Source of the DNA: Thermococcus sp. AM4
GTDB taxonomy: Archaea > Methanobacteriota_B > Thermococci > Thermococcales > Thermococcaceae
Direction of reading: 5' to 3'
DNA: 64,000 nt
Assembly (NCBI RefSeq): GCF_000151205.2
Contig: NC_016051.1
Location: 558,001-622,000 of the forward strand
In this document: positions 11,789 to 62,045 of the stretch, piece after piece
Position numbering within the stretch: the stretch's first letter is position 1
How the letters are laid out: each line of letters opens with the position of its first letter
Program-made: the position numbers and the translations under genes
Notes under the pieces: generated by a model
What the model was told of the DNA's origin: nothing
The model's database searches: none
Seen by the model: only the letters and a program-made list of their open reading frames with translations

Positions 11789-12238
11789 ATGGGCAGGAAG
11801 CATCACGACATAGGGTTCATAGAGGACAGCCTTATCAAGTGGCTCAGCGTGATCTTCGACATAGTTGTTATCGGCCTCGCCACCATAACGATGGGCTACG
11901 TCGTGTACATGATGATAGAGCTCCTAATAACGGCCCCTCTCTCGATCGAGGACGTCCTCCACCACATCGTTCTCATCATAATCTTCCTCGAGATCTTCGA
12001 ACTGCTCACCATGTACGTCAAGGAGCACCACGTCAGCATGAGGAACGTCGTCGAGCTCGGCGTTCTGGCCATGGTGAGGAAGATCATAATAACCCTCGAC
12101 TACAACCTCCTCGGCTGGCAGACGCTCTTTGGAATGGCGGCCCTCATATTCGTCATGGGCTGGATCTACGTGCAGGAGAGACAGAGGAGGACGAGACACG
12201 AGGAGTTCCTCTTAACCCACGGCATCAAGAAGGTCTAG
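11789..12238 (+). CDS. PsiE-like membrane protein
   Basis: About 149 residues with four hydrophobic helices and the layout of the PsiE (phosphate-starvation-inducible E) family, including the loop ELLTMYVKEHHVSMRNVVELGVLAMVRKIIIT typical of the family. Function is unknown even in bacteria. The ATG at 11789 is preferred over GTG 11783 because of the GGCGGGTG site before it. The roughly 200-base gap upstream holds the acdA promoter on one strand and several imperfect inverted repeats (for example GGAGAAT at 11708 with ATTCTCC further on), with no gene visible. Confidence 0.7.
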   Translation: MGRKHHDIGFIEDSLIKWLSVIFDIVVIGLATITMGYVVYMMIELLITAPLSIEDVLHHIVLIIIFLEIFELLTMYVKEHHVSMRNVVELGVLAMVRKIIITLDYNLLGWQTLFGMAALIFVMGWIYVQERQRRTRHEEFLLTHGIKKV

Positions 12239-12239
12239 C

Positions 12240-12293
12240 CGATGACGACCCTTCCCCTCCCTGAGCGGTGATGAGCAACCCGGTAGGCCGAGG
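12240..12293 (+). ncRNA. C/D box sRNA candidate 1
   Basis: Right after the PsiE-like stop the boxes occur in the right order. Box C-like ATGACGA (12242-12248) is followed by a 12-base guide (12249-12260), D' CTGA (12261-12264), a 3-base spacer and a perfect C' GTGATGA (12268-12274). A 13-base guide (12275-12287) and D-like CCGA (12288-12291) complete it. Spacing is exactly that of archaeal 2'-O-methylation guides. One mismatch each in C and D lowers confidence. Confidence 0.45.
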
Positions 12294-12337
12294 CAAACCC
12301 TAAATACCCCTTTCCCCACTTTTCTTGGGTGGTGAAG

Positions 12338-61225: not shown

Positions 61226-61261
61226 GGCTTTTCCTTCTTTCCCCTTCTTGGACCGAAAAAC

Positions 61262-61270
61262 GTTATAAGT
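61262..61270 (+). promoter_or_regulatory. TATA box upstream of the hairpin RNA candidate
   Basis: GTTATAAGT is centred 27 bases before the base of the hairpin at 61293, the normal distance to a transcription start. No protein gene follows on this strand, so it would drive an RNA gene. Confidence 0.5.
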
Positions 61271-61292
61271 TTCAGGAGCGTAGTCTCTTCTC

Positions 61293-61354
61293 GTGCGGTG
61301 CCCGGCCTTCGTCAGCCATGCACCCCCTGGTGGTTGAACGGCCGGGTGCCGCAC
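61293..61354 (+). ncRNA. Structured RNA candidate with a 15-bp stem
   Basis: GTGCGGTGCCCGGCC (61293-61307) pairs with GGCCGGGTGCCGCAC (61340-61354), with two G-U pairs. The inner 32 bases contain a further CACC/GGTG stem (61320-61331). An ACA follows the base (61352-61356), but the long lower stem does not match a standard H/ACA guide. It lies between convergent genes and behind its own TATA box. Confidence 0.5.
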
Positions 61355-61359
61355 AACCC

Positions 61360-62001
61360 TCAGAACACTACCTCGGCCCCGTATTCTTCGATGTCCAGCG
61401 ACTTCAGAACCCTCAAGCGGGACTTTCCATCGAAGGTCAGGCTCAGAACCCTCGTGCAGTGCTCCCTCAGCTCGTTTAGGGTTCTCTCGGAGATCAGGTC
61501 CCTGTTCACGAAGTAGACGGTTACCCTCTCGGGGTTTCCGAGGTGGGGGCGGACGAGATAGCCGAAGATGCGCTCCTTCTCGCGGGGGTCGTTCTCGTAG
61601 CTGGCGAGCACCTTTTCAAACCCCACTATGAGCCGGAAGCCCTTCTCCTCGCCGATCCCGGCCAGTATGGCCTCGTAGTGCTTCTTTCTGACGGGAGGTT
61701 CTTTGGCCAAGTCAACCTTTCCGACGACAGAGCCGGTCTCTATTATCCCGCCCATCTTCACTACCTTGGCGTTGTCGATAACGCCAGCGTCAAGCCCCAT
61801 TATTCCGAGGTGAGTCCTGAGAACGTGGAGCTGATCGAGCTCATCGAGGATCATGAAGGGCCTTCCAATGTCATTGAGGGTCCTGAGGAACCGGTAGAAA
61901 AGGATGTGAACCGGCGCCGTCGAGGAGTACTCGACGAGAACGTCTTCACCGGGCTTCAAGCCCTCTATAAACTCGCCGAGGGATACTTCGAGTTTCGTCA
62001 A
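61360..62001 (-). CDS. DUF257 family protein (RecA-fold-like)
   Basis: About 213 residues: EVSLGEFIEGLKPGEDVLVEYSSTAP, then LDELDQLHVLRTHLGIMGLD, KVDLAKEPPVRKKHYEAILAGI, and LVRPHLGNPERVTVYFVNRD. This is the DUF257 family of Thermococcales. TTG 62001 has GGTGAT 4 bases upstream; ATG 62007 is a less supported start. Confidence 0.72.
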   Translation of the reverse strand: MTKLEVSLGEFIEGLKPGEDVLVEYSSTAPVHILFYRFLRTLNDIGRPFMILDELDQLHVLRTHLGIMGLDAGVIDNAKVVKMGGIIETGSVVGKVDLAKEPPVRKKHYEAILAGIGEEKGFRLIVGFEKVLASYENDPREKERIFGYLVRPHLGNPERVTVYFVNRDLISERTLNELREHCTRVLSLTFDGKSRLRVLKSLDIEEYGAEVVF

Positions 62002-62045
62002 GGACATCACCTGTAGGGGTTACGGTTTTCGGCGTAAAAAGCTTT

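Follow-up and report, generated by a model that had tools for sequence, protein, structure and literature searches.

What might a hairpin with its own TATA box do between two convergent genes? The question is raised by a short interval in the window analyzed here, the whole 64-kb stretch G000:C1:558001-622000 of a genome (G000) of 2,086,428 bases. An earlier note on this DNA described a long stem, an inner stem and a TATA box at the right distance, doubted an H/ACA assignment and considered a Thermococcales hairpin RNA outside the known families. Genome comparison leads us to a more specific reading: the plus strand of the interval (61291-61354) probably encodes a trans-encoded antisense small RNA (sRNA) with its own TATA promoter, which would mask the ribosome-binding site (RBS) of the first archaellin gene.

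A conserved hairpin downstream of glyA

The features of the locus are collected in Table 1. The stem read from the sequence comprises 15 bp, including two G-U pairs, between the arms GUGCGGUGCCCGGCC and GGCCGGGUGCCGCAC, which enclose 32 nt. RNA folding of positions 61293-61356 on the plus strand gave -44.7 kcal/mol against a mean of -25.7 for shuffled sequences (z -6.10; 0 of 200 shuffles as good), which bears out the 15-bp stem described before. Folding is weaker on the reverse strand (-32.3, z -2.3, 2 of 200 shuffles as good) because the G-U pairs turn into mismatches there. The inner stem is present in G000 and in G014, which has an identical hairpin, but folds and alignment show that it is not kept in the other homologues.

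Table 1. Positions of the features at the hairpin locus, numbered within the window.
Feature	Position	Strand	Basis or remark
glyA (SHMT, PF00464)	ends 61225	+	Domain match
Promoter: A-rich BRE-like stretch and TATA box TTATAA (61263-61268)	61256..61268	+	Sequence; spacing in homologues
Predicted small RNA gene	61291..61354	+	Fold z -6.1; by covariance model, 20 of the 61 genus genomes carry a homologue
5' arm of stem	61293..61307	+	Sequence and fold; two-sided changes at six of 15 pairs
Putative antisense element (top of 5' arm and loop)	61304..61330	+	Antisense match to the flaB1/arlB0 start region (SD, spacer, AUG, codons 2-3)
3' arm of stem	61340..61354	+	Sequence, fold and stem pair changes
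DUF257 ORF	61360-62010	-	Its end lies 6 nt from the hairpin

As the earlier note stated, the hairpin lies between convergent genes and its TATA box is suitably placed; the two genes in G000 are glyA and the DUF257 ORF. The stem begins 24 nt past this box, and the distance from the end of the TATA box to the stem is 21-24 nt in all 19 homologues checked (G067, which was outside the script's pattern, was left out of this count; a TATA box precedes its hairpin too). In G008 the upstream sequence is different, yet the TATA box is found at the same distance. The spacing in G000 is near the median TATA-to-TSS distance of 23 bp reported for T. kodakarensis (PMC4247193). The RNA is predicted to start at about 61291 (TATA plus 23), and its conserved part ends at 61354. 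We found no U-run terminator after the stem in the G000 sequence, and among the homologues neither a conserved U-run 3' of the stem (G036 has TTTTT 12 nt past its stem) nor conservation of the 3' sequence as such. A loosely periodic AAATNAGGGG-like motif with a spacing of about 13 nt occurs just 3' of the hairpin in L116, L118, L119, L157, L168, and L170.

BLAST gave clear matches to the hairpin in six other genomes and a weak one in G028 (E 0.0014), which was recognized on inspection, while the archaellin leader as query revealed two further hairpin genomes (G082 and G073). A covariance model of ten hairpins (R1) then added ten more homologues, which brings the number to 20 of the 61 genomes of the genus; four of the 24 genomes in the R1 tally were excluded, since they match only the antisense strand of the archaellin leader. 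A second model of all 20 hairpins (R2), run with strict filters on 94 genomes of the family, recovered these 20 with E-values of 6.8e-6 or lower, and under these filters the 33 genomes from five sister genera yielded nothing with an E-value of 0.1 or lower. One of the copies (C1:454720-454768) belongs to G010, which we take to be T. kodakarensis, a species with genetic tools, in which glyA is TK0528.

The earlier note had proposed a covariance search downstream of glyA, and 18 of the 20 homologues are indeed located there on the same strand, 15 of them within about 175 nt and the others farther away (0.7 kb in G008, 1.8 kb in G028, 3.2 kb in G036). In G027 and G073, glyA and the hairpin are on different contigs. 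Where the sRNA does not directly follow glyA, signs of rearrangement were seen (L007 in G027, L008 in G028, L004 in G008, and L074 in G073). A recombinase-like ORF in G027 and a TnpB-like ORF in G028, both judged by eye, lie near the sRNA, as do tRNA genes in G008 and G073.

In the stem alignment, which holds 20 homologues in 19 distinct rows and leans towards the model since it is model-fitted, 93.7% of cells pair. Two-sided changes occur at six pairs and in 21 cells, these being counts of sequences rather than of events. None of 500 shuffles reached any of the three values (pairing, two-sided pairs, and cells), and pairing falls to 30-37% when the 3' partners are slid by one column. Rfam 15 at gathering score gave no match over the hairpin or in three homologue loci (L118, L113, and L119), and only chance-level matches were obtained for the hairpin at E up to 10. 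The 20 homologues in the genus, 18 of them after glyA, and the two-sided changes in the stem support the idea of an unknown Thermococcales hairpin RNA with its own promoter.

Complementarity between the loop and the archaellin leader

Further analysis revealed an antisense relation of the loop to an archaellin start site, which was absent from the earlier note. Positions 61304-61330 pair with CCAGGGGGUGCAUGGCUGAUGAAGGCC over 27 nt with zero mismatches and one G-U pair. In the genome-wide BLAST search of G000, the hairpin has its best hit outside its own locus at 825302-825333, on the minus strand of the archaellin leader (E 8.8e-7, 94% over 32 nt), and the next one has an E-value of only 0.07. 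The predicted target is the first archaellin gene, flaB1/arlB0 (PF01917), which adjoins an EarA-family gene about 206 kb from the hairpin, and the Shine-Dalgarno sequence (SD) covered by the antisense element is GGGGGUG. Two of the other three archaellin genes at that locus have a pairing score of 8.0 versus 26.5 for flaB1. In the rest of the window, which represents a thirtieth of the genome, the top score was 14.5, and the maxima in 20 triplet-shuffled windows were 13.5-18.5. At 85 °C, with extrapolated parameters, the model energy of the duplex was -27.8 kcal/mol, compared with -14.2 for the hairpin and -2.4 for the leader by itself. Short matches to the hairpin (14-20 nt) exist in many genomes; nine such places were fetched, and the eight with the motif look like coding sequence by eye. 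A second site in G003 has no hairpin and also looks like coding sequence.

A flaB1 leader was also found in 16 of the 20 hairpin genomes, and in all 16 the two partners pair over 21 nt or more. The best block is free of mismatches in 13 of these, with some mismatches in G023, G028, and G082. Over a 24-bp core, 376 of 384 cells pair (353 Watson-Crick and 23 G-U; 8 unpaired). When reduced to 11 distinct rows, 97.0% of cells pair (0/500 shuffles), and two-sided changes are present at six positions (1/500 shuffles) and in 13 cells (0/500 shuffles). Further pair types show no excess over shuffles (86/500), and sliding the partners brings the pairing down to 37-48%. The co-changed positions are mostly in the spacer between SD and AUG, where the target is non-coding.

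The summed score of own partners is above every permutation (0 of 200000 as high), where the permutation counts genomes as independent although they are related. A genome's own pair ranks first in just 6 of 16 cases by target and 7 of 16 by sRNA, because relatives share both partners. A glyA tree of 30 genomes has 12 of 27 inner branches well supported and is too weak for counting independent loop changes. Across the relatives, loop and target change together, which points to a putative conserved RNA switch for motility. It also gives an example from a hyperthermophile in which intermolecular RNA covariation can be read. In G028 (L051, around 1596 and 2248) the leader GGGGGUGUAUGGGGAAUGAAGG precedes two tandem archaellin genes, and therefore one sRNA could reach both.

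Carriers without archaellins and hairpins with other loops

We found incongruences in the distribution of the two partners. Four hairpin carriers (G029, G036, G002, and G067) have no PF01917 archaellin that we could find. G067 no longer has the C-run that faces the SD, which is what loss of the target would lead one to expect, whereas the antisense element is largely intact in G029, G036, and G002 although no archaellin was found there. Among the flaB1 leaders read, which are part of those in the genus, at least ten with GGGGGUGCR come from genomes where the model and inspection of the region after glyA found no matching sRNA (G061, G034, G003, G069, G024, G006, G080, G004, G062, and G063); the leader is therefore kept without the sRNA.

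Inspection of 20 regions downstream of glyA revealed five (G006, G011, G018, G026, and G062) where a TATA box accompanies a hairpin whose loop is different, and relatives of the G006 hairpin were also found in G066 and G013. Against their own flaB1, the five loops score 7.0, 7.5, 9.0, 10.5, and 13.5, and the reversed-leader controls 7.5, 7.5, 9.0, 10.0, and 7.5. The G062 loop alone stands out from its control and may represent a remnant. The hairpins at L167 (G006), L162 (G011), L176 (G066), and L178 (G013) are mutually related, follow a TATA box and have a common loop; in G006 and G011, both directly downstream of glyA, this loop is ATACATCAYTGTG, which has no flaB1 match.

Seen across the genus, the sRNA gene after glyA could tentatively be regarded as a modular antisense platform. 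It would silence the first archaellin cistron in most carriers, where it would determine filament composition or switch motility, and in other clades this promoter and stem would present loops directed at other mRNAs. If this is true, RNA-RNA co-evolution could be read over many species.

We consider it unlikely that the archaellin mRNA is just one of several regulated mRNAs, with the syntenic promoter and stem as platform and the loop re-aimed by clade. The largely intact loops in the three genomes without archaellins and the differently looped hairpins at the same place in other clades would fit such a scheme, but no other match in G000 comes near that to flaB1 (next E 0.07). Four other possible targets tried in G029, G002, and G036 scored 9-16, within or below the shuffled-window maxima of 13.5-18.5. 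A search of the G006 genome with its own loop found only the hairpin itself.

A candidate RBS-masking RNA and its relation to known systems

The preferred reading, masking of the flaB1 RBS, can be put as a sequence of events. Transcription from the TATA promoter would begin at about 61291, at or just before the stem, and the long GC-rich stem would keep the short RNA intact at temperatures of about 85 °C. First contact would be between the C-rich loop and the G-rich SD, after which pairing would spread past the AUG, unzip the upper part of the stem and cover the SD, spacer, AUG, and next codons of the flaB1/arlB0 mRNA. In this model, the simplest outcome is that 30S binding is blocked and the first archaellin is translated less; the two further archaellin genes that were checked would escape repression. 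Two marks of a trans-encoded RBS-masking sRNA are present: the hairpin has a promoter of its own, at a different locus from the target, and its complementarity to the SD and start codon of the mRNA is conserved in 16 genomes.

The same pairing might have the opposite outcome, with the sRNA stabilizing or activating the archaellin mRNA, or with an abundant mRNA acting as a sponge for the sRNA. The flagellin gene TK0038 ranks in the top 25 by reads in a pyruvate library of T. kodakarensis (PMC4247193, Table 1), so this mRNA can be abundant, but the SD and AUG themselves are covered, which is the usual place for repression. We therefore infer repression and regard stabilization or a sponge as quite unlikely. 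It is very unlikely that the hairpin has no RNA function and is either what remains in the DNA of an inverted flaB leader or a terminator serving the convergent genes. The position in G000 would suit this, but the TATA box has a fixed spacing, there is no U-run in G000, the stem covaries with G-U pairs on one strand and the loop with its target, and the next long ORF downstream in G010 and G067 is co-directional instead of convergent. It is hardly credible that the hairpin belongs to a guide or structural RNA (H/ACA, C/D, or some other housekeeping type) whose match to the archaellin leader is due to descent or chance: a stable hairpin with an ACA near its 3' side might suggest one, but this ACA (61352-61354) shares bases with the end of the stem and lacks conservation, the Rfam 15 search led to no C/D or other family assignment, and the loop co-changes with the archaellin leader.

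RBS-masking sRNAs of the kind proposed for the hairpin have been described in archaea. M. mazei sRNA154 and sRNA41 (PMC5867862) are likewise intergenic, with a loop or stretch complementary to an RBS, and repress translation initiation. They come from another lineage, have other sequences, and act on other targets (nitrogen fixation and ACDS), and they were shown by experiment, whereas the Thermococcus hairpin is known from genome comparison alone. Transcriptome maps report 55 previously unrecognized small transcripts in T. kodakarensis (PMC4247193) and 86 ncRNAs in T. onnurineus (PMC5316973). The predicted RNA resembles these orphan sRNAs as a small TATA-driven intergenic transcript, and it may already be among them without an assigned function. 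The available parts of both maps (PMC4247193, PMC5316973) do not mention an archaellin mRNA as sRNA target, and searches of the open-access literature turned up no sRNA directed at archaellin mRNA. The kind of regulator is therefore known in archaea, while the RNA family and its archaellin target appear new. Many small RNAs are listed for Thermococcales, and according to a 2025 review their roles are only beginning to be defined; for the hairpin RNA, the target can be predicted at single-base resolution.

In Thermococcales, EarA controls the archaellum operon, and the arlB0 leader of P. furiosus is 30 nt long (PMC10665913). EarA and the proposed RNA share the promoter-proximal archaellin gene as target, and an EarA-family gene adjoins flaB1 in G000. 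EarA acts on transcription of the cluster (PMC10665913), whereas the proposed RNA would affect how the first cistron is translated. One question raised in the 2023 EarA paper is how an archaellin that is not first in the operon could be post-transcriptionally regulated (PMC10665913), and an RNA that shuts only the first cistron would be a direct candidate answer. Elsewhere in the window, positions 12238-12294 (+) match the C/D box family snoPyro_CD (RF00095) with 47 bits versus a cut-off of 45.
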